Source of the DNA: Bacteroidota bacterium
GTDB taxonomy: Bacteria > Bacteroidota > Bacteroidia > Chitinophagales > LD1
DNA length: 48,498 bases
Assembly (NCBI GenBank): GCA_026391075.1
Contig: JAPLES010000011.1
Location: 1-48,498 of the forward strand
Reading direction: 5' to 3'
Shown here: one piece after another, positions 14,164 to 44,225 of the stretch
Position numbering within the stretch: the first letter of the stretch is position 1
How the letters are laid out: every line of letters begins with the position of its first letter
The notes under the pieces: model-generated
Seen by the model: only the letters and a program-made list of their open reading frames with translations
Database searches by the model: none
Told to the model about the DNA's origin: nothing
Program-made: the position numbers and the translations under genes

Positions 14164-14198
14164 GCTTTGCAAATATCTGAGAAGCAAGCTAATCTTTT

Positions 14199-14323
14199 CT
14201 CCCCTTTTTAAGGGAGAACATTTTTTGCAGAATACACTTTTTGATGGAAATAAAACGGGTTGCTCCTGCTGCACATTTGCATTGTCAAAACGAGATCACA
14301 TTTCAAAACAATTAAAAACAAAA
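14199..14323 (+). repeat. Leader repeat, copy A (upstream of the M43 metalloprotease)
   Basis: The most diverged of three related leaders. It shares the blocks AATACACTTTTTGATGGA, GCTGCACATTTGCATTGTC and ACAATTAAAAACAAAAA with the copies at 16127 and 17713, in the same order and ending just before the start codon. The outer CCCC-T-run/GGG hairpin is only partly kept. It probably acts as a promoter or 5' untranslated region that co-regulates the modules. Confidence 0.7.
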
Positions 14324-15682
14324 ATGAAAATGAAAAAGACAATTCTACTTCTTACCGCCACTTTACTTCTTCACACAGCATTTGCGCAATCTGAAAAGTG
14401 CGCTACCGCTAAAGCATGGACTTTATTGAAAACAAAAGACGCCAATGCACAAGCAAGAATGGAACAGATGGAGGAGTTCACAAAAAATTATCACGCACAA
14501 AATCCTGTTTTAAATTACAAAGTAAATAACACGGCAAACGCTTCACGCAGTCAGCGCAGCGTTATTATGATACCGGTAGTAGTGCATGTAATTTATCACA
14601 ACGAACAACTGGGTGTAGGCGCAAATATTTCCGATGCGCAGATTCACTCGCAGATAGATGCGCTCAATGCCGATTTCAGGTTATTGAATGCCGATTCAAT
14701 TCCTACATCGCATCCGTTTTGGAATTATTCAGCCGATTGTATGATTCAATTTTGCTTAGCAAAACAAGAACCTAACGGAAATCCTACCAATGGAATTGTG
14801 CGCATCAATTCAAGCGTAACTTCTTTTAGCGAGCAGGATTTTTTTGATGATGTAATGAAATTTACTTCTACCGGTGGCGATGATAATTGGAACCCTGAGC
14901 ACTACCTCAACTTCTGGACATTCCGGATAGACGCCACTTCGGGCATGCTTGGTAAAAGCAGTTTCCCTTCTAACCTCGCTACAAATCCGGAGTTGGACGG
15001 AGTGATTTGCCGCTTCGATGCTTTTGGCACCACCGGTCCTTTGAGACCAGCCAATACCCTTGGCAGAACAATGACGCACGAAGTTGGACACTGGTTCAAC
15101 CTGAAACACATTTGGGGCGATGATGATGGAGCAACGCAAAATCTCGCATGCGACCTTGGCGAGTGCGATGGAAGCGATGGAGTAGATGATACACCCAATC
15201 AATGTGAACGCAATTATGGCTGTCCTAGTTTTCCAAACAACCCTTACAACGATTGCGGCAGCGATGAAAATGGCGACATGTATATGGACTACATGGATTA
15301 TACCGATGACCCATGCATGGTGATGTTTACTTTTGGTCAGGCCGAAAGAATGCAGGCTGCACTTGCCGGACCAAGAGCTGAAATACGTAATTCGAACGGT
15401 TGCCAAATGTCTACCGGTGTTGCAGATATTTATGCTGATAAAAACATAGAGGTTTCACCAAATCCAAGCAGCGGTAATTTCAATATCCGGTTCAAACAAG
15501 GCACCGGTGAAATGATTTCAAAATTATCGGTAAGCAATTCATTGGGCATGACTGTTGCGAATATTGAATTGGATAATTCCGACAACTATCAGCTAAATTT
15601 AAGCAACCAGCCAAGCGGAATTTATTTTCTTCAGGCAGTTGAAAAAGGCAAAACCATTTCTAAAAAACTTATTTTGAACTAA
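14324..15682 (+). CDS. Secreted M43 (pappalysin-type) metalloprotease with T9SS sorting domain
   Basis: A 452-residue protein with a Sec signal peptide (MKMKKTILLL... cut after FAQ). Its zinc site HEVGHWFNLKH is followed by WGDDDG and DDTPNQ and a Met-turn region (YMDYMDY), as in M43B zinc peptidases. The last 75 or so residues (VSPNPSSGNFNIRF ... ISKKLILN) form a type IX secretion C-terminal sorting domain, so the enzyme is exported and anchored or released at the surface. Two start codons, 14324 and 14330, are possible. Its stop overlaps the next ATG (TAATG). Copy A of the leader repeat precedes it. Confidence 0.92.
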   Translation: MKMKKTILLLTATLLLHTAFAQSEKCATAKAWTLLKTKDANAQARMEQMEEFTKNYHAQNPVLNYKVNNTANASRSQRSVIMIPVVVHVIYHNEQLGVGANISDAQIHSQIDALNADFRLLNADSIPTSHPFWNYSADCMIQFCLAKQEPNGNPTNGIVRINSSVTSFSEQDFFDDVMKFTSTGGDDNWNPEHYLNFWTFRIDATSGMLGKSSFPSNLATNPELDGVICRFDAFGTTGPLRPANTLGRTMTHEVGHWFNLKHIWGDDDGATQNLACDLGECDGSDGVDDTPNQCERNYGCPSFPNNPYNDCGSDENGDMYMDYMDYTDDPCMVMFTFGQAERMQAALAGPRAEIRNSNGCQMSTGVADIYADKNIEVSPNPSSGNFNIRFKQGTGEMISKLSVSNSLGMTVANIELDNSDNYQLNLSNQPSGIYFLQAVEKGKTISKKLILN

Positions 15683-16035
15683 TGAAAAATATAACCATCC
15701 TGTTACTGCTTTGTTTAAGTGCATGTGCAGCCAGCAAAAAAGTTGAATCAAATCCAAGTAAGACGTTAGTAGTGTCTTTCTATAGCATAGGCAGCGGAAT
15801 TGATTACAAAACAAAAACTGAGTTCGACAAATATGTTGAGCAGTTTCAGAACACGGAAAAGAAAACGTTACCGGTAAGCAAAGTTCAAAAAGGCAGAGAA
15901 GGCGAATATGATTACTGCATTGATTTAAAGCCGTTGTCATCAACTGAGCAAACAAAGTTTATAGATGGCGCCAAACAATTGCTCAACACAGGTCAGTGGA
16001 TTAGGATAGCCGAAAAAGAAAAATGCAATCCCTGA
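15682..16035 (+). CDS. Small lipoprotein (117 aa), parent family of the two downstream microproteins
   Basis: It starts within the stop of the M43 protease gene. The signal peptide ends in a lipobox (LSACAAS, Cys15). Residues 19-62 (KKVESNPSKTLVVSF, then KTKTEFDKYVEQFQNTEKKTL) align with the 63- and 59-residue proteins at 16256 and 17838. Those lack the lipobox Cys and the C-terminal 50 residues, which here include a Cys near residue 73 (YDYCIDL). Function unknown. Coupling to the protease suggests an accessory or inhibitory role, which is speculation. Confidence 0.75.
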   Translation: MKNITILLLLCLSACAASKKVESNPSKTLVVSFYSIGSGIDYKTKTEFDKYVEQFQNTEKKTLPVSKVQKGREGEYDYCIDLKPLSSTEQTKFIDGAKQLLNTGQWIRIAEKEKCNP

Positions 16036-16054
16036 ATCCCTTAAACAGCTAGCC

Positions 16055-16094
16055 AAAAACAAAAGCCTTCTCCAACGAGAAGGCTTTTGTTTTT
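16055..16094 (+). terminator. Intrinsic terminator after the M43 protease/lipoprotein pair
   Basis: Perfect 18-base arms (AAAAACAAAAGCCTTCTC and its complement) enclose a CAAC loop and end in a T-run on the plus strand. The A/T-rich arm ends make it work in both directions. It closes the first module 20 bases after the lipoprotein stop. Confidence 0.85.
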
Positions 16095-16126
16095 AAGCCC
16101 GCTCATAGGGGGTTTAGGGGTGGTAT

Positions 16127-16255
16127 CCCCTTTTTCGGGGAGAAAGATTTTTTCAAAATACACTTTTTGATGGACGAAAAAGGGGCTCTGCGCGCTGCAC
16201 ATTTGCATTGTCAAATAACAACAACGTTTTTTTAAAACAATTAAAACCAAACAAC
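16127..16255 (+). repeat. Leader repeat, copy B
   Basis: About 129 bases directly before the 63-aa gene. CCCCTTTTTCG at its left and CGAAAAAGGGG about 45 bases on are perfect inverted arms, and between them TCAAAA and TTTTTGA can form an inner hairpin. GCTGCACATTTGCATTGTCAAA and an A-rich tail up to the ATG follow. It is close to identical with copy C over most of its length. Confidence 0.8.
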
Positions 16256-16447
16256 ATGATACTCCTCACAATTCTGATAAGCGCTTTTATAGCAAGAAAA
16301 AAGGCGAAATCAAATTCAGACAACGCCCTTGCTGTTTCTATTCAAAACGTAAGTAACAACAAAACCAAAACTTCACTGGAACAATATGTGGCGTGGTTAC
16401 AGAACACAGACACAACCGCTCTGCGTGCGCGCCTCGCTAAAAATTAA
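16256..16447 (+). CDS. Microprotein (63 aa), module B
   Basis: Starts MILLTILISAFIARKKAKSN: one short hydrophobic helix, a basic stop-transfer segment and a soluble tail with KTSLEQYVAWLQNTDTTAL. It is 70-80% alike to the 59-aa protein at 17838 and shares its core with the 117-aa lipoprotein at 15682, but has neither the lipid-attachment Cys nor the C-terminal half. ATG at 16256 is chosen because the copy C protein starts at the same point and the leader repeat ends there. An upstream in-frame ATG at 16208 lies inside the leader. It precedes the beta-helix lipoprotein by 58 bases. Either a conserved small membrane protein or a translated leader; function unknown. Confidence 0.65.
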   Translation: MILLTILISAFIARKKAKSNSDNALAVSIQNVSNNKTKTSLEQYVAWLQNTDTTALRARLAKN

Positions 16448-16505
16448 TTCGTCTATCCATTATAAAACACCATTTTACATAACCATTTAAACCAAAACAA
16501 AATTT

Positions 16506-17618
16506 ATGAAACATCTTACAAACCTTTCGGCCGCTCTTGTTCTTGAAGGTATTCTTACGTTTAATTCCTGCAAAAAAGAAGACAACAATCCTCCTACCGG
16601 TTGCACTAAAGAATTAGTAATAGTAGGCGCCACTATAGATGCCGCCACCACTTGGGATAGCTGCCATATATATTATGTGTCAAACATTTTCCTGGGGCTG
16701 AACGCCACGCTGACCATACAGGAAGGAACCATTGTAAAGTTTGGTCCACAGAAAGGAATAGTGGTAAATGGTGGTGGCGGAAGGCTTGTGGTAACAGGCA
16801 CTGGAGGACATCCGGTGATTTTTACTTCGGCAGCCGATGACAGCCGTGGTGGCGATACGAATGGCGATGGCAGCGCTACCACCGCCCAAAAAGGCGACTG
16901 GCAGTTTATTACCCTCGGCACTACTTCGGGCAACAGTATTGACCATGCCGAAATTCTATATGCAGGTTATGCTACGGCTACTTACGAGCAGTCGCTCAAC
17001 ATGGGTGGTGGGGTCAATAACTCGGTAACAAGTACCGTTTTTGCACATAATGCAGGCAGTTTCGATTCGAAGTTCGCGGCACTCAACATGTCGGGGTGCC
17101 CGCAAAGTAGTACCGCGAAGTGGAATATTTTTTATGATAACGGGCATCCGCTTATCATAGGCACTTCTACCGATATTGACGACAGCAATACTTTTCATAA
17201 TCCGGCTAATGCCACAGAAACCAATCTGTGCAACGGAATTTTTGTGGACTGCGTGCACAATCAGGATCAGGCAGACCTGATGACATGGGAAGAAACAGAG
17301 GTAGCATTTGTATTAGGCGGCTGGAGCGGCAATAGCTGGGCTTTTGATGCCACAAAAATTCTAACGCTGGGCGATAATGTGGTGGTGAAGTTTGCCAGGT
17401 ATACAAACCCCGGCTTCTCTATTTTATTTCCGGATGGAGGGCTTGGACAGATAGCGAACTATGACGGTCCCGGTGTGGAGTTTACTTCATATGGCGATGA
17501 CACCTATAAAGGCGATACCAATGGCGATGGCTTTAGCTCACCGGATCTTTGGTCAGGTATTTCGTACCCGGGCATCAACTGGTATCAATGGTCAAATATT
17601 CATTATCAGGAGCATTAG
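16506..17618 (+). CDS. Surface lipoprotein with predicted beta-helix fold, module B
   Basis: A 370-residue lipoprotein with lipobox FNSCKKE (Cys22), a Cys-Lys-Lys start common in Bacteroidota. The rest is Gly/Thr/Asn-rich with regularly spaced hydrophobic strands (LTIQEGTIVKFG, VVVNGG, VIFTSAADD), the pattern of right-handed parallel beta-helix surface proteins. No catalytic motif was found. Asp-rich turns such as DTNGDGSAT, repeated as DTNGDGFSS near the end, may bind calcium. Its paralogue lies directly downstream (18075). The block from the leader repeat to the terminator is duplicated in tandem. Confidence 0.75.
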   Translation: MKHLTNLSAALVLEGILTFNSCKKEDNNPPTGCTKELVIVGATIDAATTWDSCHIYYVSNIFLGLNATLTIQEGTIVKFGPQKGIVVNGGGGRLVVTGTGGHPVIFTSAADDSRGGDTNGDGSATTAQKGDWQFITLGTTSGNSIDHAEILYAGYATATYEQSLNMGGGVNNSVTSTVFAHNAGSFDSKFAALNMSGCPQSSTAKWNIFYDNGHPLIIGTSTDIDDSNTFHNPANATETNLCNGIFVDCVHNQDQADLMTWEETEVAFVLGGWSGNSWAFDATKILTLGDNVVVKFARYTNPGFSILFPDGGLGQIANYDGPGVEFTSYGDDTYKGDTNGDGFSSPDLWSGISYPGINWYQWSNIHYQEH

Positions 17619-17640
17619 CCAAAACGGTTTTGAGATAAAA

Positions 17641-17674
17641 CAAAAAGCGGTGGGCAAATGCCCACCGCTTTTTG
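17641..17674 (+). terminator. Intrinsic terminator after the module B lipoprotein
   Basis: A perfect palindrome: CAAAAAGCGGTGGGCA, AA loop, then the exact complement ending in TTTTTG and TTTTA. It lies 22 bases after the stop codon. A related imperfect hairpin ends module C at 19450, so the terminator was copied with the module. Confidence 0.9.
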
Positions 17675-17712
17675 TTTTATAAAACGGCCGCGTTAATACA
17701 GCATTACCTTCT

Positions 17713-17837
17713 CCCCTTTTTCGGGGAGGAACATTTTTTCAAAATACACTTTTTGATGGACGGAAAAGGGGCTCTGCGTGCTGCACATTTGCATTGTCAA
17801 AACAATCACATTTTAAAAACAATTAAAAACAAAAAAC
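17713..17837 (+). repeat. Leader repeat, copy C
   Basis: 125 bases ending at the ATG of the 59-aa gene. All blocks of copy B are present: the CCCCTTTTTCGGGG arm, AATACACTTTTTGATGGA, the CGGAAAAGGGG arm (one mismatch against the left arm), GCTGCACATTTGCATTGTCAAA and the A-rich tail. Conservation of a non-coding block before every module points to a regulatory role. Confidence 0.8.
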
Positions 17838-18017
17838 ATGATACTCTTAACGCTTCTGATAACTACTTTGATAGCAAGAAAAAAAGCTAAATCAAATTCG
17901 AACAAAGTTCTTGTTGTTTCTGCTAACAACAAAACCAAAACTTCGCTGCAACAATATGTGGAATGGTTGCAGAACACCGACACCGTTGCTCTTCGTGCTC
18001 GCCTCGCTAAAAATTAA
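17838..18017 (+). CDS. Microprotein (59 aa), module C
   Basis: Sequence MILLTLLITTLIARKKAKSN, then KVLVVSANNKTKTSLQQYVE and WLQNTDTVALRARLAKN. It is the tandem-duplicate partner of the 63-aa protein at 16256, with a four-residue deletion in the middle but the same helix, basic stretch and C-terminus. The reading frame is kept although many bases differ, which argues that the small protein is under selection. It ends 57 bases before the second beta-helix lipoprotein, and the intervening sequence is also duplicated. Confidence 0.65.
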   Translation: MILLTLLITTLIARKKAKSNSNKVLVVSANNKTKTSLQQYVEWLQNTDTVALRARLAKN

Positions 18018-18074
18018 TTCGTCTATCCATTTTAAATCATCATTTTACATAACCGTTTAAACCAAAACATTTTT

Positions 18075-19424
18075 ATGAAACACCTTTCAAACATTTCAAC
18101 TGCGCTTATTCTTACAAGTATTTTATTTTTGAATGCATGTAAGAAGACAGAAAGTGTATTACCTCCTGTTGCCTGCTTTACTCCAAGTGCCACTATCGTA
18201 GCATCGGGTACCGCGATTAATTTTACTAATTGCACCAATGCCGGCACTTCTTATTTCTGGGACTTTGGAGACGGCACTACATCAACTGATGCATCGCCAA
18301 ACCATACCTATACCGGCAGCGGAACCTATACAGTAACCATGACGGCAACCAATGCCGATGGCACCAATACCAAAACGAGTTACATAACTGTTACCGGTGT
18401 TGGTGGTGGTTGTGTAAAGACTGTGGTGGAAGTAGACAACACGCCTATAAGTTCTCCCACTACCTGGGACAGTTGCCATATTTATCACATTACAAATTCG
18501 GTGGGATTAACAGCAACGCTTACTATTGAAGCAGGAACCGTTGTAAAGTTTGATGCCTTAAAAGGTATTAATGTAAATAGCTGACAGCTTATCGTAAACG
18601 GCACTGTTGATGCTCCGGTAATTTTTACTTCTGCAAAAGATGACAGCTACGGAGGAGATATCAATGGAGATGGAAATGCAACTTCTCCTCAAAAGGGCGA
18701 CTGGAGCGATATTAACTTCGGCAACTCTTCAAACAATACGCTTGATTATTGCAAAATATTTTATGCAGGCAGCGGAACCGCCACCCTAGAGCGTGCGGTG
18801 ACTATGGGTGACGGAGCTAATAATGTTATCACGAACTCGGTAATTGCACATACTGCAGGTGGAGCCGATCAAAAATTAGCGGCTCTGTATATGTGTTATG
18901 CTCCGCATAGTAGTGTAGCCAACGGCAATACTTTTTTCGACAACGGTCATCCGGTGTTGATAGGAATAGCTTCTGATTTTGACGACAGCAACGTATTTCA
19001 TAACCCTGATAACCCATCGGAAACAAATCTTTGTAATGGAATTTTTGTTGCCACTGTATTTGTATCTGCCGATAATATGACCTGGAGAAATACCGAAGTG
19101 GCTTATGTGTTTGGCACATACGGTAGCAACAGTTGGTATATGCCAACCAACAAAATGCTTACGTTAGGCGATAACGTGGTGCTGAAATTTAATACCAATA
19201 CACCACCAAATTCCGGCTTTTCGCTGTATATACCTGCTGGAACTTCGCAACTTGTAAACTATGACGGACCCGGAGTGGCGTTTACATCTTATAATGATGA
19301 CAGTTTAAAAGGCGATACAAATGGTGATGGCTTTTCTGTTGGAACACCCGCCTATTGGTCGGGCATTGAAACCAGCGGACCGGTTTGGTAGCACTGGTCG
19401 AATATTTATTACAATGAGTTTTAG
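18075..19424 (+). pseudogene. PKD-containing beta-helix lipoprotein, module C, interrupted by TGA and TAG
   Basis: The full frame of 450 codons encodes a lipoprotein (LNACKKT, Cys22) with a PKD domain inserted after the signal (about 30-115, YFWDFGDGTTS), then a beta-helix region parallel to the module B protein. Codon 170 is TGA (18582-18584), where the paralogue reads Gly-Gly-Arg. Codon 439 is TAG (19389-19391) in VW-stop-HWSNIYYNEF, where the paralogue reads WYQWSNIHY. No frameshift occurs and the sequence between stops is well conserved. The gene is therefore either recently inactivated, miscalled or read through. Without suppression the first stop leaves only the PKD domain and the first coil. 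Confidence 0.82.
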
Positions 19425-25753: not shown

Positions 25754-28700
25754 TTAATTGAGTTCTACTTTTACTTTTAAAATCTCTTCATTGAATTCCA
25801 CTTCATCAAATTCGCTAAGCGAATCAACCAGCAAAATCTCCTTCGCTAAAATTTCACTGGCGATATAATCTTTAAACGAAGCCAACGTTTTTTCAAGCAC
25901 TTCATTTTTTACCACCGAAACTTTAATGCGGTCAAGCACTTGAAAGTCTTTGTCCTTGCGCAGATTCTGCACTTTGTTTACGAACTCTCGTGCATTCCCT
26001 TCTTGCTTCAATTCATCAGTTATGGTTACATCGAGTGCAACGGTTAATCCATTTTCACTCACCACTAACCAACCAGGAATATCTTCTGTTTGAATCTCCA
26101 CATCCGAAATCAGCAATTCGAAAACTGCTCCATCTAATTGTAGATTATATTTCTGGTCTTGCTCAATTTTTGAAATGTCTGCGGCAGTAAACGCATTTAC
26201 TGCATTTTGAATCACTTTAATTTTTTGTCCTGCGCGTTTACCTAACTCTTTAAAGTTTGGTTTGATTTTCTTCTTCACCACACCACTTGCATCGCTGATA
26301 TATTCAACAGCTTTCACGTTTACTTCATTCAAAATGTAGCTCTCCACTTTAGAAAGCTGCTGTTGCATTTTTTCGCTCAGTACCGGAATCAGAATCTTCG
26401 AAAGCGGTTGACGCACCTTTATTTTTTCCTTTTTGCGAAGCGAAAGAATCAACGAACACGCATGTTGCGCCAACTCCATTCTTTCTTCTAAATCTTTATC
26501 AATCCATTTTTCGTTGGCAACGGGCAAATAATCTAAATGGATTGATTCCTTTTCTCCATTCAGGTTTTTATAAAGCCAATCACTAAAAAACGGAGAGATA
26601 GGCGACATCAATTTTGCTACGGTCATCAAACATTCATACAAAGTTTCGTAAGCGGCTTGCTTATCATCACTCATTTCTCCCTTCCAGAATCTTCTTCTGT
26701 TCAAGCGCACATACCAGTTGCTCAAATCTTCATCAACAAATTTTTCTACAGCGCGTGCCGCTTTTGTCGGCTCGTAATCTTCGAAGAAACCTGTTACATC
26801 TTTTATAAGCGTTTGCAGTTTAGAAATAATCCACTTGTCCAACTCTATCAAATACGGGCTGTCTTTAAAGCCCCCTTTTGGTTGTTGCGGCTTATCAATA
26901 TTCGCATACAGTGCAAAGAATCCATACGTATTATACAGCGTTCCGAAGTGCGAACGAACAACATCCTGTAAGCCGTTCATGTCGAACTTCATGTTCTCCC
27001 AGGGGTCGCTGTTGCGCATCATATACCAGCGCGTAGCATCAGCCGAATATTTCTCAAGCGTTTCAAACGGGTCAATGATATTGCCTAGGCGCTTGCTCAT
27101 TTTGTTTCCTGCCTTATCGAGCAGCAAACCATTGCTCACAACATTTTTGTAAGCCACAGAATCGAACAGCATTACCCCCAACACATGCAAGGTAAAGAAC
27201 CAACCACGTGTTTGGTCAACACCTTCTGCAATAAAATCTGCTGGAAATGCAGCCCCCAAACCCCCGAAGGGGGCTTTAACAGCCAGCCCTTTTTCCAATG
27301 TTGGTCTTGCTGCGAGTTCTTTCCAAAGAGAATTCAAAACAGCTTCAGTGTTCCCAATCACCTCCTCATTTGTAAAACGAATTACTTTGTAATTGAGATA
27401 AGAAAGATATTCGGTTCTTGCTTTGTCAAATTCTATTTGTTCTGTTGTGTTATGATAGCCGCCATCTACTTCAATCACTAATCTTTTTTCGAGGCAAACA
27501 AAATCCACGATAGCTTCATCTATGATGTGTTGTCTTCTGAACTTGTATCCACTCAATTTTTTTCCGCTCAGCTGAGTCCATAAAATTTCTTCTGCTTGTG
27601 TTGGTTTATTTCTGTTCTCAATCGCAAATTGTTTGAGTTTGTCATAAGTCAACGGATTCGCAGTTTTCCATTTCAAGAGCAACTCGGCTGTTTTGTCTTT
27701 TAAGCCCCCTTCGGGGGTTTGGGGGCTTGGCATCCAGTGCCACTGCGCATAAGGCATAGCACCAGAATCGAACCAAACATCAATCAAATCGGCAACTCGC
27801 TTCATTGGTTTGCCCGAAGGAGAAACAAGAATAATGTCATCAACAACCGGCTTATGCAAGTCAATTACTTCAACCAATTTCATCAAACCCGCTTTTGCCG
27901 ATTTTTCAATTTCGGATTTCAATTCAGCAATTGAGCCGATACAAATTTGTTCGCTTCCATCTTCTGTTAACCAGATTGGAAGTGGAGTTCCCCAATATCT
28001 ACTTCTACTCAAATTCCAATCCACTAAATTTTCCAACCACTGACCAAAACGACCCTCGCCTGTATGTGCAGGTTTCCAGTTGATGGTTTTGTTCAACTCA
28101 ATCAAGCGGTCTTTTACTGCAGTGGTTTTTATAAACCATGAATCGAGCGGATAGTAAATGATTGGTTTATCGGTGCGCCAACAGTGCGGATAGTTGTGTT
28201 CGTATTTTTCGGTTTTGAAAAGCTTATTCTCCAGCTTCAACTTCAAAACAATCAACTCATCAACACTCAGGTGATTTTTCAAATCAGGAATGATGTTGTT
28301 CACGCGCAGAATTTCTTTTTGCAGATGAAATTCCTTTTCCTTTTCTGCATCGGTGTAATACGCCTCCTTCACATAACGACCACCCAACGGAAATATCGGG
28401 TCGTTGACTTCATCTACAAATTTCCCTTGTTTGTCTACAAGCGTGAGGGAGCCAATTCCATTTTGCTTTGCCACCTTAAAGTCATCGGCACCAAAGCTTG
28501 GCGCAATGTGAACTATTCCTGTTCCATCGGTAGTGGTTACAAAATCTCCGAGAACAACCTTGAATGCATCGCCATCGGCTGGTTGAGTGTAAGGCAGAAG
28601 TTGTTCATAGCGGATGCCTTCGAGTTCTTTTCCTCTGAATGAATTCAGTAATTGAAAAGGAATTTTTTTGTCGCCTTTCTTATATTCATCAAAACTCAAC

Positions 28701-29647
28701 TCTGCATTTTCGGCAGTGAAATACTTTCCAACTAAATCTTTAGCAAGGATTACATGAACGAGTTGATGTGTGAAAGCGTTGAAGGTTTTCACCAATACAT
28801 AATCAATTTCTTTCCCGAGAGCAAGTGCTGTATTCGAAGGAAGTGTCCACGGAGTTGTTGTCCAAGCGAGGAAGAAAACACCAGCCCCCAAACCCCCGAA
28901 GGGGGCTTTGAATTCACCTTCATGTTTAAGAACCTCTTCAATAATATAGGCCGCCTTGGTTCCCCCTTCGGGGGTTAGGGGGCCGAACATCGCAATTGCA
29001 CTGGTATCCTTCACTTCCCTGTAGCACCCGGGCTGATTTAACTCGTGTGAACTCAATCCCGTTCCCGCGGCAGGTGAGTATGGTTGAATAGTATACCCTT
29101 CATACAATAGATTTTTATCGTAAAGTTTTTTCAGCAACGCCCACAAACTTTCTATGTAGTTGTTCTCGTAAGTGATATATGGATTGTCGAGGTCAACCCA
29201 GTAGCCCATTTTGTCAGTAAGGTCGCGCCAGATATCCGTGAACTTCATTACATCCTCACGGCAGAGGCGATTGTATTCTGCAACAGTAATTGTCTTTCCT
29301 ATATCGGCTTTAGTAATGCCGAGTTGTTTTTCTACTCCGAGTTCAACAGGCAAACCATGGGTATCCCAACCGGCTTTTCTTTCCACACGGTAACCTTGCA
29401 ATGTTTTAAAACGACAAAACAAATCTTTAATAGTCCGACTCATTACATGGTGAATGCCGGGTTTTCCATTGGCAGAAGGAGGACCTTCGTAAAACACAAA
29501 ACGTTTTTCTTCGGGGCGCGTACTCACGCTTTTTTCAAAAATTTTATTCTCCTGCCACCACTTTAAAATTTCTTTTTCAATGGTGGGAAGATGCAACTGG
29601 TCGTATTCGGGATACTGATTCGGCTTGTCTGAATTCTTTCTTTTCAT
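25754..29647 (-). CDS. ileS: Isoleucyl-tRNA synthetase with two in-frame palindromic-element insertions, one carrying a DUF559 nuclease
   Basis: 1,297 residues, against about 1,100-1,150 expected. The class I core is complete: GPPSANGKPGIHH (HIGH site), the editing domain with TWDTHGLP-type and TTTPWTLPS motifs, FDSGAMPYAQWH, GVDQTRGWFFTLH and the KMSKR loop (AGNKMSKRLG). The tRNA-binding C-terminal half is also present. Residues 222-255 and 641-799 are extra. Both blocks are bounded by palindromic repeats and keep the frame exactly. The first lies before FLAWTTTPWTLP at the start of the editing domain, the second between AQWHW and FPADFIAEG in the catalytic domain. As the only IleRS visible it should be functional, so the insertions are presumably tolerated. 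A TATATTCG box lies 8 bases upstream. Confidence 0.95.
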   Translation of the reverse strand: MKRKNSDKPNQYPEYDQLHLPTIEKEILKWWQENKIFEKSVSTRPEEKRFVFYEGPPSANGKPGIHHVMSRTIKDLFCRFKTLQGYRVERKAGWDTHGLPVELGVEKQLGITKADIGKTITVAEYNRLCREDVMKFTDIWRDLTDKMGYWVDLDNPYITYENNYIESLWALLKKLYDKNLLYEGYTIQPYSPAAGTGLSSHELNQPGCYREVKDTSAIAMFGPLTPEGGTKAAYIIEEVLKHEGEFKAPFGGLGAGVFFLAWTTTPWTLPSNTALALGKEIDYVLVKTFNAFTHQLVHVILAKDLVGKYFTAENAELSFDEYKKGDKKIPFQLLNSFRGKELEGIRYEQLLPYTQPADGDAFKVVLGDFVTTTDGTGIVHIAPSFGADDFKVAKQNGIGSLTLVDKQGKFVDEVNDPIFPLGGRYVKEAYYTDAEKEKEFHLQKEILRVNNIIPDLKNHLSVDELIVLKLKLENKLFKTEKYEHNYPHCWRTDKPIIYYPLDSWFIKTTAVKDRLIELNKTINWKPAHTGEGRFGQWLENLVDWNLSRSRYWGTPLPIWLTEDGSEQICIGSIAELKSEIEKSAKAGLMKLVEVIDLHKPVVDDIILVSPSGKPMKRVADLIDVWFDSGAMPYAQWHWMPSPQTPEGGLKDKTAELLLKWKTANPLTYDKLKQFAIENRNKPTQAEEILWTQLSGKKLSGYKFRRQHIIDEAIVDFVCLEKRLVIEVDGGYHNTTEQIEFDKARTEYLSYLNYKVIRFTNEEVIGNTEAVLNSLWKELAARPTLEKGLAVKAPFGGLGAAFPADFIAEGVDQTRGWFFTLHVLGVMLFDSVAYKNVVSNGLLLDKAGNKMSKRLGNIIDPFETLEKYSADATRWYMMRNSDPWENMKFDMNGLQDVVRSHFGTLYNTYGFFALYANIDKPQQPKGGFKDSPYLIELDKWIISKLQTLIKDVTGFFEDYEPTKAARAVEKFVDEDLSNWYVRLNRRRFWKGEMSDDKQAAYETLYECLMTVAKLMSPISPFFSDWLYKNLNGEKESIHLDYLPVANEKWIDKDLEERMELAQHACSLILSLRKKEKIKVRQPLSKILIPVLSEKMQQQLSKVESYILNEVNVKAVEYISDASGVVKKKIKPNFKELGKRAGQKIKVIQNAVNAFTAADISKIEQDQKYNLQLDGAVFELLISDVEIQTEDIPGWLVVSENGLTVALDVTITDELKQEGNAREFVNKVQNLRKDKDFQVLDRIKVSVVKNEVLEKTLASFKDYIASEILAKEILLVDSLSEFDEVEFNEEILKVKVELN
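26862..26895. repeat. Possible degenerate half of the ileS palindromic repeat
   Basis: The minus strand reads AAGGGGGCTTTAAAGACA in the codons for PKGGFKDS, close to AAGGGGGCTTAAAAGACA inside the right end of the DUF559 element. Only one arm is recognisable. The protein is about the usual length here, so this could be coincidence or the scar of an old insertion. Confidence 0.35.
27251..27727 (-). mobile_element. 477-bp palindrome-ended element with DUF559 (Vsr-like) nuclease domain, in frame within ileS
   Basis: The ends are 29-base inverted repeats differing at one base (AGCCCCCAAACCCCCGAAGG at the left, continuing GGGCTTTAA). Each holds a CCCCC-GAA-GGGGG hairpin. The length is 159 codons exactly, and the element starts on a codon boundary. 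It encodes SPQTPEGGLK at one end and KAPFGGLGA at the other. Between them (IleRS residues 676-774) is a full DUF559 domain: NRNKPTQAEEILWTQL, GYKFRRQH, AIVDFVCLEKRLVIEVDGG with the acidic metal ligands, and KVIRFTNEEV. DUF559 is related to Vsr endonucleases. There is no stop or separate start needed: the nuclease is made as part of IleRS. No target duplication is evident. Confidence 0.85.
28883..28984 (-). mobile_element. 102-bp non-autonomous palindromic element in ileS
   Basis: Inverted ends of the same type as the 477-bp element (one arm AGCCCCCAAACCCCCGAAGG, the other with CCCCCTAACCCCCGAAGGGG on the minus strand) enclose about 50 bases. It is exactly 34 codons long and in the same phase, giving GPLTPEGGTK and KAPFGGLGAG at the two ends. 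The inside (AAYIIEEVLKHEGEF) contains no domain. It looks like a deletion derivative or a miniature relative of the nuclease-carrying element. Confidence 0.8.
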
Positions 29648-41372: not shown

Positions 41373-44225
41373 TCAATGCGCCTCTAACCAATTCACACCC
41401 GTTCCCATTTCTGCTTCTATTGACACCTTAGTTTTTATAGCGTGAACCATTTTATCGTAAATGATTGGCTTGATAATTTCTACTTCATCTTTATGTGCAT
41501 CAAACACCAACTCATCATGCACCTGCAAAGTCATTTTGCTTTTGAAATTTTGTCTTTTGAATTCGCGGTGAATATCAATCATGGCAAGTTTAATCATATC
41601 AGCTGCTGAACCCTGCACCGGTGAGTTGATGGCATTTCGCTCAGCATAGCCGCGCACAGTAAAATTTTTTGAGTTGATGTCTTTCAAATAACGTTTACGC
41701 CCCATGATGGTTTGCACAAAACCATGCTCGCGTGCATACTGAACATTGGCGTTCATGTATTCTTTAATCTTAGGAAACTGTGCAAAGTAATTGGCAATAA
41801 TTTCTTTGGCTTCACCACGTGTTGTTCCAATATTATCTGCCAAACCAAACGCACCTTGTCCGTAGATGATTCCGAAATTCACGCTCTTAGCTTTGTAACG
41901 CATTTCTTTAGTTACATCGGCAATAGCAACATTGTAAACCTTAGCTGCAGTAGCGGTATGGATGTCAATTTTATTTTGAAAAGCATCGAGCATATTTTCA
42001 TCGCCACTTAATTCCGCAACAATGCGCAACTCAATTTGCGAGTAATCGGCAGAAAGCAAAACATGATTTTCATCGCGCGGGATAAATGCTTTGCGCACAC
42101 GCTGCCCGCGCTCGGTGCGAATAGGAATGTTTTGCAAATTCGGATTATCGCTGGCTAATCTTCCCGTTGCGGCAATGTGCTGGCGGAAATTAGAATGCAC
42201 TCTACCCGTTACTTTATTTATCAAAAGCGGAAGTGCATCTACATAAGTAGAACGCAATTTTGCGAACTCGCGATAGTCCAGAATTTTTCCGGCAATAGGA
42301 TGAAGTTTTACCAAACCTTCGAGTGCATCTTCGTTGGTAGAAAGCTGACCGGTCGAAGTTTTCTTTCCTTCAAAAGGAATTTTCAATTCGTTGTAAAGCA
42401 CCTCGCTCATTTGCTTTGGCGAGTCCACATTAAATTCTCTTCCTGCTAATTGATAAATTTCATCGCGCACTTTCAGCAAATCAATTTCCAGTTCCTTTGA
42501 ATAAATTTTCAAGAACTCTTCATCAATCTTCACGCCTTCATATTCCATATCAGCCAATACTTCTATCAGCGGATGTTCAACATCGTTCAACACTTTTTCT
42601 ACTTCTTGCATTACAACAAGCGGTGCTAATTTGTTTTTGAGTTGAAGCGTAATGTCGGCATCTTCAGCAGCGTATTCCGAAATTTTTTCGAGCGGCACAT
42701 CGCTCATCTTGCCTTGATTCTTTCCTTTTTTACCAATCAATTCCTCGATAGAAACAGGCGTGTAACCCAAATAGGTTTCACTCAAATAATCCATGCCGTG
42801 TTTCAAATCAGGTTCTATCAAATAGTGTGCAAGCATGGTATCGTAAAGCGGCAGTGAAACGCGCACATCATATCTGCGCAACACTTGCATATCGAACTTT
42901 ACATTCTGTCCTATTTTAATTTTCGTTTTGCTTTCAAGCAGCGGTTTGAAGTGAGCAACCAACTTTGTTGCTTCATCGCGATTTGAAGAAACAGAAACAT
43001 AATATGCTTCGCCTTCTTTCACACTAAAACTCATTCCCACTAAATCGAGTGTGAAGTAATCCAGTCCAGTTGTTTCGGTATCGAAACAAAATTCTTCGGC
43101 TTCATTCAACAGTTTTACCAAATCAGAAATTTCATTTTCTGTTTGAGCCACCTTGTATTTGTGTGGTGTATTCAAAATACTTTTCCCTTTCACCACTTCT
43201 TCTAAATCATTTTCAGTAGAAGAATCTCCAAACAAATTTCCTTGCGATTCAAAAATGGTTTTTGGTTTTGTGTTTTGTATTGGTTCCTCTCCTTCGGAGA
43301 GGTTAGGAGAGGTGGTTGTTTGGTTTGCACTATAATCTGCACCTAAAATTCTTTTTCCAAGAGTTCTGAATTCTAACTCCGAAAAAATAGCTCCCATTTT
43401 TTCTTTATCGGGCGCATCCATTTTTAAATCATCGTCACTCACTTCAATAGGCACGTTCAAGTTTATCGTTGCCAAAACTTTGCTCATCAAACCCTGCTCG
43501 GCAAAATTCTTTACGTTCTCGCCCACCTTGCCTTTTATTTTATCGGCATTGGCAATGGTGTTTTCCATACTGCCGAATTCTTTGATGAATTTCTTCGCGG
43601 TCTTTTCGCCCACTCCAGGTATTCCCGGAATATTATCTACCGCATCGCCCCACATACCAAGAATGTCAATCACCTGCAATGGCGACTCCACTTCCCAATT
43701 GCGTTTAATTTCTTCCACGCCAAGAATTTCTACTTCACCACCGCTTCGTGCAGGCTTGTAAACAAAAATTTTTTCCTCCACCAGTTGCGCAAAATCTTTA
43801 TCGGGTGTAACCATATAAACGGTATGGCCTTCTGCAGCCTTTTTCTTCGCAATGGTGCCTATGATATCATCGGCTTCATATCCTCTCAACTCTAAAATAG
43901 GAATGTGCCAAGCGCGAATAATGTCTTTGATATAAGGAACAGCAAACAGAATATCTTCCGGTGTTTCTTGTCTGCCTGCTTTGTATTCAGCAAAAATTTC
44001 TTCGCGCTCTGCACTGCCACCTAAATCAAAAACAACAGCCAGGTGCGTTGGTTTTTCTTTTTGAATTAATTCAAAAAGTGTGGTGGTGAATCCGTTGATG
44101 GCAGAAACATTTTGCCCCTTCGAATTCAATAATGGGTTTCGGCCGAAAGCAAAATACGCGCGAAAGATGAGTGCGTAAGCGTCAACTAAAAAAAGTTTTT
44201 CGGTGTGATTGGAAGTGTGCGCCAT
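41373..44225 (-). CDS. polA: DNA polymerase I
   Basis: 950 residues with all three domains. The 5' nuclease has LVDAYALIFRAYFAF, VVFDLGGSAERE, GYEADDIIGT and the HhH region IPGVGEKTAKKF. The 3'-5' exonuclease begins FDTETTGLDYF, so proofreading residues are present, with a later Asp in YAAEDADIT. The polymerase has DYSQIELRIVAELSGD (motif A), KAVNFGIIYG-like KSVNFGIIYGQG (motif B) and QVHDELVF (motif C). It fills gaps and removes RNA primers. The linker between the two nuclease domains carries a 9-codon palindromic insert (43286-43312). Confidence 0.97.
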   Translation of the reverse strand: MAHTSNHTEKLFLVDAYALIFRAYFAFGRNPLLNSKGQNVSAINGFTTTLFELIQKEKPTHLAVVFDLGGSAEREEIFAEYKAGRQETPEDILFAVPYIKDIIRAWHIPILELRGYEADDIIGTIAKKKAAEGHTVYMVTPDKDFAQLVEEKIFVYKPARSGGEVEILGVEEIKRNWEVESPLQVIDILGMWGDAVDNIPGIPGVGEKTAKKFIKEFGSMENTIANADKIKGKVGENVKNFAEQGLMSKVLATINLNVPIEVSDDDLKMDAPDKEKMGAIFSELEFRTLGKRILGADYSANQTTTSPNLSEGEEPIQNTKPKTIFESQGNLFGDSSTENDLEEVVKGKSILNTPHKYKVAQTENEISDLVKLLNEAEEFCFDTETTGLDYFTLDLVGMSFSVKEGEAYYVSVSSNRDEATKLVAHFKPLLESKTKIKIGQNVKFDMQVLRRYDVRVSLPLYDTMLAHYLIEPDLKHGMDYLSETYLGYTPVSIEELIGKKGKNQGKMSDVPLEKISEYAAEDADITLQLKNKLAPLVVMQEVEKVLNDVEHPLIEVLADMEYEGVKIDEEFLKIYSKELEIDLLKVRDEIYQLAGREFNVDSPKQMSEVLYNELKIPFEGKKTSTGQLSTNEDALEGLVKLHPIAGKILDYREFAKLRSTYVDALPLLINKVTGRVHSNFRQHIAATGRLASDNPNLQNIPIRTERGQRVRKAFIPRDENHVLLSADYSQIELRIVAELSGDENMLDAFQNKIDIHTATAAKVYNVAIADVTKEMRYKAKSVNFGIIYGQGAFGLADNIGTTRGEAKEIIANYFAQFPKIKEYMNANVQYAREHGFVQTIMGRKRYLKDINSKNFTVRGYAERNAINSPVQGSAADMIKLAMIDIHREFKRQNFKSKMTLQVHDELVFDAHKDEVEIIKPIIYDKMVHAIKTKVSIEAEMGTGVNWLEAH
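43286..43312. repeat. 27-bp palindromic repeat unit, in frame within polA
   Basis: On the coding strand: CCTCTCC, TAA, CCTCTCC, GAA, GGAGAGG. This is the same architecture as the ends of the ileS elements (CCCCC, AAA or TAA, CCCCC, GAA, GGGGG). It is 9 codons long, encodes SPNLSEGEE and interrupts no domain. Confidence 0.75.

Follow-up and report, generated by a model that had tools for sequence, protein, structure and literature searches.

How does an essential gene come to hold, within its reading frame, a piece of DNA that ends in palindromes and encodes a nuclease? The question is raised by ileS, the gene of isoleucyl-tRNA synthetase (IleRS), in a stretch of 48,498 nucleotides from a genome of the Bacteroidota (GCA_026391075.1, contig JAPLES010000011.1, positions 1 to 48,498); this whole stretch is called the window below. 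The insert in ileS codes for a nuclease domain of family DUF559 and is one case of a wider phenomenon. The best reading, and one towards which we lean, is that of a selfish element of homing type that lacks any means of splicing. Its main features in the window are the following:

27251..27727, minus strand: DUF559 element, 477 bp, 159 codons, open and in frame in ileS
27699..27727, minus strand: left arm (in the sense of ileS), 29 nt, with the triplex-type motif CCCCC-AAA-CCCCC-GAA-GGGGG
27251..27279, plus strand: right arm (in the sense of ileS), inverted copy of the left arm (97%)
27314..27640, minus strand: DUF559 (PF04480) nuclease domain by Pfam, with E28, D57, E68, G71 and R99 of the aligned core invariant
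25754..29647, minus strand: host gene ileS, isoleucyl-tRNA synthetase, open reading frame (ORF) of 1297 aa without a stop

The insert in ileS

The preliminary description of this DNA, made from the sequence alone, had reported inverted ends of 29 bases that are nearly perfect, and the two arms (27251-27279 and 27699-27727) are indeed inverted and 97% complementary over 29 nt each. It had also noted that the insert is a whole number of codons, in frame and free of stops, which is borne out by 159 codons inside an open frame of 1297 aa. By coordinate the element spans IleRS residues 641-799. The full DUF559 domain that had been claimed was recognized by Pfam, here at residues 670-778 (E=3.1e-31), as the sole family inside the element, together with the related MTES_1575 below the cutoff. 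The absence of signs of splicing was confirmed as well at the level of protein domains, since no splicing (Hint/intein) family was listed by Pfam in the window ileS at E<=1. An intein was rejected on the same ground, with no splicing domain listed by Pfam in the window ileS or in 10 other embedded hosts (E<=1e-5 for the latter). Insertion into a loop was correctly proposed, but it is not a simple addition: compared with empty sites, the insert takes the place of about 12 loop residues, giving a net gain of about 151 residues, and the distance from PYAQ to FPADF is 165 residues in the occupied gene versus 14 in the empty one.

The palindrome CCCCCTTCGGGGGTTTGGGGG, allowing up to three mismatches (<=3), has 16 copies in the 3.6-Mb genome, four of them in the window ileS, and its reversed control has none in the same genome, so that a chance palindrome is ruled out. 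Of the other copies in this genome, some are in frame in genes and others lie outside any long frame; two in-frame copies have hosts that we take, from their sequence, to be aroE-like and methionyl-tRNA-synthetase-like. One further DUF559 match is present besides the window element. A related genome, L049, has the same insert, with an element protein 96% identical to that of the window, and diverged inserts occupy the same ileS site in isolates, e.g., of Flavivirga and Salegentibacter. An assembly artefact is unlikely, because same-site inserts recur across independent records, isolates included.

Occupied and empty sites in relatives

The search for empty sites among relatives that the preliminary description had called for was made on the 30 best ileS loci of a search through 40 genomes, the window's own included. 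The insert is present in five of the 30 (own genome, G015, G011, G020, and G023) and the site is empty in 25. Loops of a single length, with a sequence resembling YPFENxxxFKxN, are found in 21 of these 25; the remaining four (L031, L036, L038, and L047) have other loops. The loop of L038 (genome G012), WPFGKGGPQAPGGVTGPPFGNERK, could be what remains of an insert that was lost. On an ileS host tree of 36 rows (six extra carriers added, insert region left out), presence of the insert changes five times; within the family of the window's genome the carriers are found among relatives with empty sites, and presence is patchy inside one genus. As the insert replaced the loop, plain deletion would not restore the ancestral loop, and most empty sites have therefore probably always been empty, or were converted back by an empty copy.

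Host genes across Bacteroidota

Elements of the same type, looked for as the preliminary description had proposed, are embedded in many other genes across Bacteroidota. A contig scan with the element protein gave 75 loci, which with 20 regions of relatives and two earlier loci yielded 98 DUF559 ORFs; 60 further regions brought these to 158, of which 153 are unique. The 20 and 60 added regions were mostly picked for long open frames, and the share of hosts there is therefore no rate. By sequence clustering, the embedded groups are LeuRS (29, at two sites), RecG (21), IleRS (10), MetH (10), HsdR-type proteins (up to 6), ValRS (4), PurL (3), and HsdM (2), plus smaller or single cases and one group of 4 that we take for methyltransferases. 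Short stand-alone DUF559 frames make up 30 of the clustered set. Locus L187, mis-clustered with PurL, is counted as PurL in the counts of arm complementarity, arm plan, hairpin frame and motif density, and is set apart from PurL in both DUF559 trees and in the divergence test.

Host and DUF559 were both confirmed by Pfam in 10/10 proteins scanned, one per host type, and Pfam listed no transposase family for any of them. These 10 proteins include a UvrD-like helicase with an insert and N-terminal fusions to HisF and RNase H. In a set of 392 Bacteroidota genomes DUF559 is present in 222, and the best 150 matches fall in frames of at least 800 aa (39), of 250-799 aa (12) or shorter (99). Three loci stand apart. 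L194 (3375-7391) encodes an HsdR-type protein with a GIY-YIG nuclease domain besides the DUF559 insert, and in L086 two different frames of one locus each have a DUF559 block (at 1860 and 3524). L064, from a record named Limnohabitans sp. MAG20, has a recG DUF559 that groups with Flavobacterium copies and is probably a wrongly binned contig.

The nuclease

In the alignment of 152 DUF559 rows, E28, D57, E68, G71, and R99 are invariant in all, H74 in 151 and D83 in 150. Conservation is alike in embedded and stand-alone copies, and 123/123 embedded copies are invariant at the catalytic-type residues; from the fold class, these are likely to be catalytic. Over residues 21-140 the predicted fold reaches block means of 76-95, while the arm peptides are disordered. 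Its best Foldseek match in the PDB is the uncharacterized NGO0050 (3hrl), followed by I-Bth0305I (3r3p; E 1.9e-4, target TM-score 0.79) and, more weakly, by Vsr (1cw0; E 0.013). The best characterized match is thus a homing endonuclease, and the model points to a fold of that class.

The ratio of nonsynonymous to synonymous substitution rates (dN/dS) was computable for 16 of 18 pairs given. For the insert it is 0.03-0.20 in 15 of the 16, the other pair giving 0.49 on almost no changes, which indicates that the insert is kept under purifying selection. Frame, open reading, purifying selection, and predicted fold are established, and a full-length protein is presumably made in the cell, as far as can be judged from sequence.

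Movement relative to the host gene

A DUF559 tree of 152 of the 153 segments (125 columns) groups by host site, with 38 label changes and 15 groups, compared with 106 changes on shuffling. A more careful tree of 61 rows, made after thinning LeuRS and RecG, does the same (8 label changes versus 38 shuffled); here metH copies from several families cluster (support 74/55), as do the RecG copies (42/15). A single clade of ileS-site DUF559 was rejected by the approximately unbiased (AU) test (p 0.017), and the ileS site therefore holds two DUF559 lineages; for LeuRS a single clade was not rejected (p 0.116). Grouping by site could reflect inheritance, and the comparison of silent divergence between insert and host is therefore the stronger test.

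This comparison was made on 52 same-site pairs with usable divergence. Silent divergence is significantly (P<0.01) lower in the insert than in the host in 12 pairs, significantly higher in two, and not different in 38. The 12 low pairs come from five groups. Three concern recG (four Flavobacterium, four Tenacibaculum and two Winogradskyella); the others are one leuS pair and the window with L049. In all 12 the insert lies below every host window of equal length, in two of them narrowly (0.107 versus 0.111; 0.109 versus 0.111), and in the two high pairs it lies above every host window, in one by a hair. Among the four Flavobacterium recG copies the insert differs by 0.014-0.041 and the host by 0.23-0.32 (P 1e-6 to 1e-9), and the tract of low divergence breaks at or near the ends of the insert. 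Between the window and its nearest carrier L049 the values are 0.30 for insert and 0.56 for host (P 2e-5). General constraint on silent sites fails to explain the low inserts, because in other pairs the insert diverges as much as the host or more.

Silent divergence departs from that of the host in both directions, so that at least in these 14/52 pairs the insert has moved independently of the host gene. As in a homing element, the site is occupied or empty among relatives and spread is uncoupled from the host, significantly so in these 14. The proposal that the insert is mobile, and not an old fixed domain, is upheld by the empty sites, the other copies, and this uncoupling; scattered landing in any tolerated loop is not, as movement seems to lead mostly to the same conserved sites of orthologues, in the manner of homing, with rarer jumps to new genes.

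The palindromic ends

A common plan was found in the arms of the elements: a pyrimidine block, about three bases, and a hairpin with a 5' stem that mirrors the block. A G+C hairpin is present in 261/300 arms (a raw count without a control). This block-NNN-hairpin architecture, with its block, spacer, and block-mirroring stem, agrees with the pattern of BoxC/PIT/TM repeats, CCCTCNCCC-N3-6-GGGNGAGGG-N3-GGGNGAGGG, on the opposite strand, as given in the portion of the published account that was available (PMC4666352).

A detector of such TM motifs (block and hairpin, stem of at least 6) was run around the 153 DUF559 cores. Density is 2.97 per kb up to 200 bp from the cores and 0.073 per kb at distances above 400 bp in these loci (209 versus 66 hits), an enrichment of 40.6-fold. 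On either side, hits concentrate within the nearest 100 nt (94 and 93); farther out than 300 nt, each 100-nt bin contains 0-8. The motif flanks 69 elements on both sides and 50 on one, hence 119/153 on at least one side, with none at 34; the 30 stand-alone genes have it on both sides (15), one side (4) or neither (11). Orientation is mainly inverted (left, 88 plus and 20 minus; right, 81 minus and 20 plus). The window arms have stems of 5 nt, below the detector limit, and the motif is plain in them at a 5-nt setting. Arm complementarity, computed on 150 of the 153 flanks, has a mean of 15.5 within the same element, 8.8 in mixed pairs, 10.2 in mixed pairs of the same site, and 8.3 in random windows; the 99% level is surpassed in 68/150 elements when set by random windows and in 42/150 when set by mixed pairs.

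Arm sequence is typical of each genome. A LeuRS arm of G011 is identical to four other copies there, one motif version occurs in 14/16 carrier genomes, with none for the reversed pattern, and six inverted TM pairs 139-173 bp apart were found in G205, with further inverted pairs in G199. In LeuRS, the two arms of L115 have similar extra peptides (APTVAGK and APTTAGK) when compared with L112, as if the arms had changed together. In 40 Bacteroidota genomes, 20 with and 20 without DUF559, one motif version (<=2 mismatches) was found in 10/20 carriers, four with a single hit, and in 0/20 DUF559-free genomes, the reversed control giving one hit. That the motif tracks DUF559 is only suggested by this contrast, because 16/20 DUF559-free genomes come from two families, and the two carriers from one such family also lack the motif.

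Two further ideas about the arms were discarded. A fixed reading frame was rejected, hairpin centres falling in all three frames (0/1/2: left 48/22/12, right 38/8/19). A motif specially free of stops was not supported beyond composition: 57/169 units are open in all six frames, compared with 303/845 composition shuffles and 61/750 random 28-mers.

Occurrence outside Bacteroidota

From 43 records of a plasmid collection with a YcjD-like gene, 16 were fetched before their flanks were viewed and were scanned with a looser detector. A TM motif lies within 300 bp of the DUF559 gene in 12/16 of these records from outside Bacteroidota, with 34 hits in the 14.7 kb near the gene (gene included) versus 19 in 38.4 kb farther away. 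Photobacterium and Picosynechococcus account for 11 and 6 of the 19 distant hits, and so show no special link. Motifs flank the gene on both sides in Deinococcus (3/3), Sinorhizobium meliloti, Sphingomonas, and Pseudanabaena, and were not found within 300 bp by this detector in Azospirillum brasilense, Shinella, Novosphingobium or Thermoactinomyces. In Escherichia coli K-12, a BoxC-type motif lies about 175 bp downstream of ycjD (annotated DUF559), and a partial motif overlaps the 3' end of that gene. At the level of sequence, the nuclease gene is thus tightly linked to mostly inverted triplex-type motifs in several phyla.

Further features of the window

The preliminary description was right to see a palindrome-ended insert in ileS, but this insert is not alone there. 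The other motif-bearing features are:

~28883..28984, minus strand: second palindrome-ended insert in ileS, about 102 bp, without a nuclease; in the own genome and G015
26865..26890, minus strand: half palindrome or decayed arm in ileS, peptide PQQPKGGFKDSP
43286..43312, minus strand: lone triplex-type motif, in frame in polA, peptide TTSPNLSEGEEP

Among the ileS loci displayed, the insert of about 102 bp occurs in the own genome and G015 only; ileS of G009 (L030) has a different palindrome-ended insert without a nuclease in the same loop. The own genome keeps the polA motif intact and G010 nearly intact; it has decayed in G004, G016, G017, and G001, and in G015 extra sequence breaks it up. 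Elsewhere in the window, collagen-like tandem repeats in nine-base steps lie at the contig end (47838-48498), and the region 14197-19331 contains a repeated 51-mer besides several imperfect direct repeats that are 120-149 bp long.

How the element may spread

In the reading that we prefer, a nuclease of Vsr/I-Bth0305I type (DUF559) is encoded between two inverted BoxC/PIT/TM palindromes, and the element, inserted in frame in an essential gene, would become part of the host protein as an added domain held by flexible arm peptides. In other lineages it would mainly enter uninterrupted orthologues at the same site, where the nuclease would cleave the empty allele and repair would take the carrier as template. 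The same-site spread is borne out by patchy carriers, by grouping by site, and by uncoupled divergence in part of the pairs; cleavage of empty alleles, target choice, and the part played by the arms are what we infer. Occasional jumps to new genes, in which the palindromic arms might act as ends or as nuclease substrate, would open new sites and leave TM repeats without a nuclease dispersed in the genome. Solitary TM repeats would thus derive from DUF559 elements, and the arms-bearing element is likely a source of such repeats.

Several observations weigh against this reading. A target-site duplication is not visible at ileS, a site where the insert replaces loop codons, and the nuclease has no recognized DNA-binding domain that would explain site specificity. 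A 900-residue model of IleRS with the insert reached a predicted local distance difference test score (pLDDT) of 42 and was not used. With some 125 columns, many forks in the DUF559 tree are open, and the recG and metH clades are weakly supported. The 38 same-site pairs without a significant difference between insert and host form the majority of the 52, and the pairs share members. A detectable TM motif within 200 bp is missing from 34/153 elements, and arm complementarity is significant in 0/21 recG elements. Whole-gene transfer and loss may account for some lineages, and the cleavage and homing steps are themselves deduced.

The close embrace of the nuclease gene by inverted TM arms could instead reflect structure-guided transposition, in which the nuclease recognizes and cuts TM ends folded on single-stranded DNA as a hairpin or triplex, and carries palindrome-ended DNA to new sites as RAYTs do with REPs, same-site likeness arising from later inheritance and recombination. 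The concentration of hits in the first 100 nt (94 and 93), the higher complementarity of arms within an element (15.5 versus 8.8 and 10.2), the short inverted TM pairs of G205 (six), of G199 (several) and at ileS 28883-28984, and the match of arms to other copies in their own genome all suit this account. It is at odds with the grouping of DUF559 by host site, which for metH extends across several families, with same-site exchange that left host flanks unchanged in part of the pairs, and with the want of a target-site duplication at ileS, and we regard it as rather improbable. Homing and such transposition do not exclude each other, and established sites could be kept by homing and new ones reached by end-recognition. 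If TM repeats were landing hotspots only, DUF559 inserting beside existing copies that its nuclease does not mobilize, one would understand that TM repeats also occur away from DUF559: 66 motif hits lie far from DUF559 in the same loci, and E. coli MG1655 has 23 TMECO copies according to the part of PMC4666352 available, while ycjD, its annotated DUF559 gene and the only E. coli locus examined, has one full and one partial motif next to it. Motifs on both sides of 69/153 elements, at tight distance and mainly inverted, are hard to reconcile with mere landing, as is the motif version found in 0/20 DUF559-free genomes versus 10/20 carriers (taxonomy partly confounded, four with a single hit), and this explanation appears very improbable.

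An old domain, retained for a benefit to the host such as DNA repair or phage defence and spread between orthologues by ordinary homologous recombination, would account for the strong purifying selection and the invariant catalytic-type residues, for hosts that include the repair and restriction proteins RecG, UvrD-like, HsdR, and HsdM, and for the 38/52 pairs without uncoupling from the host gene. It sits poorly with hosts as functionally unrelated as tRNA synthetases, MetH, PurL, and the HisF and RNase H fusions, with patchy presence inside one genus, with insert-limited exchange in recG pairs, and with stand-alone copies that carry the same kind of arms; we consider it to have little probability. 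The homing-type element remains the reading that we favour. Opinion is evenly balanced on the broader proposal that DUF559 with inverted triplex-type ends is a mobile-DNA class of its own (in Bacteroidota, Pseudomonadota, Cyanobacteriota, and Deinococcota) and the source of the spread of BoxC/PIT/TM, with a form that is permanently a translated, active nuclease domain in essential proteins, homing between species without splicing.

Comparison with known elements

Inteins resemble the element as in-frame, nuclease-bearing inserts in conserved genes with site fidelity, and differ in the splicing domain, which Pfam does not list for the window ileS or the 10 other hosts. I-Bth0305I and similar homing elements share the Vsr-type fold class, the fidelity to conserved sites in conserved genes, and the same-site exchange. 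In contrast to them, the DUF559 element has no intron or intein, its nuclease stays a translated domain of the host, it has triplex-type palindromic ends and copies without a nuclease, and its cleavage activity is a predicted one.

REP/BIME sequences are palindromic genome repeats, often in inverted pairs, tied to the RAYT (Y1 HUH) transposase. The likeness lies in palindromic repeats, often paired in inversion and linked to one enzyme gene. Here the enzyme is a Vsr-type nuclease and not a tyrosine (Y1 HUH) transposase, none of which was listed by Pfam in the window element or the 10 hosts; carriage is in frame, and the repeat sequence is another.

Three published systems were compared through the parts of their accounts that were available. 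Yeast WHO/HO elements likewise home into an essential gene without protein splicing, using an intein-derived LAGLIDADG nuclease; they substitute for the 3' end of FBA1 and are located next to the frame, not inside it, and palindromic ends are not mentioned in that part (PMC7282813). Rickettsia palindromic elements, of about 150 bp and with a conserved peptide, are likewise in frame in unrelated genes; they belong to another phylum, and the description to which the comparison is confined mentions no nuclease in the part available (PMC10969869). The BoxC/PIT/TM copies of E. coli MG1655 are described as always intergenic, with no transposase or integrase remnant found nearby in a survey of 2015 and with intrastrand triplex folding shown in vitro for the E. 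coli sequence only (PMC4666352); for those repeats no mobility gene is described nearby, whereas the motifs described here are linked to a nuclease and lie inside coding genes. In Legionella pneumophila, 'transposase plus DUF559' segments are named as possible recombination hotspots in the available part of PMC12308824. No link of DUF559 to BoxC/PIT/TM, nor this element, was found among the papers listed in searches of the open-licence literature of PubMed Central, and the combination of features is new within that literature as far as the searches go.

Biological meaning

DUF559, a widespread family of unknown function, gains a possible function and way of life. A possible and testable answer is offered to how BoxC/PIT/TM repeats spread, given that no mobility gene is reported near them in the available part of PMC4666352. 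The findings suggest that a homing-type element might dispense with introns and inteins when it is tolerated as a protein domain on disordered linkers, and that essential tRNA synthetases, RecG, and MetH may for this reason carry a nuclease that is still under selection.

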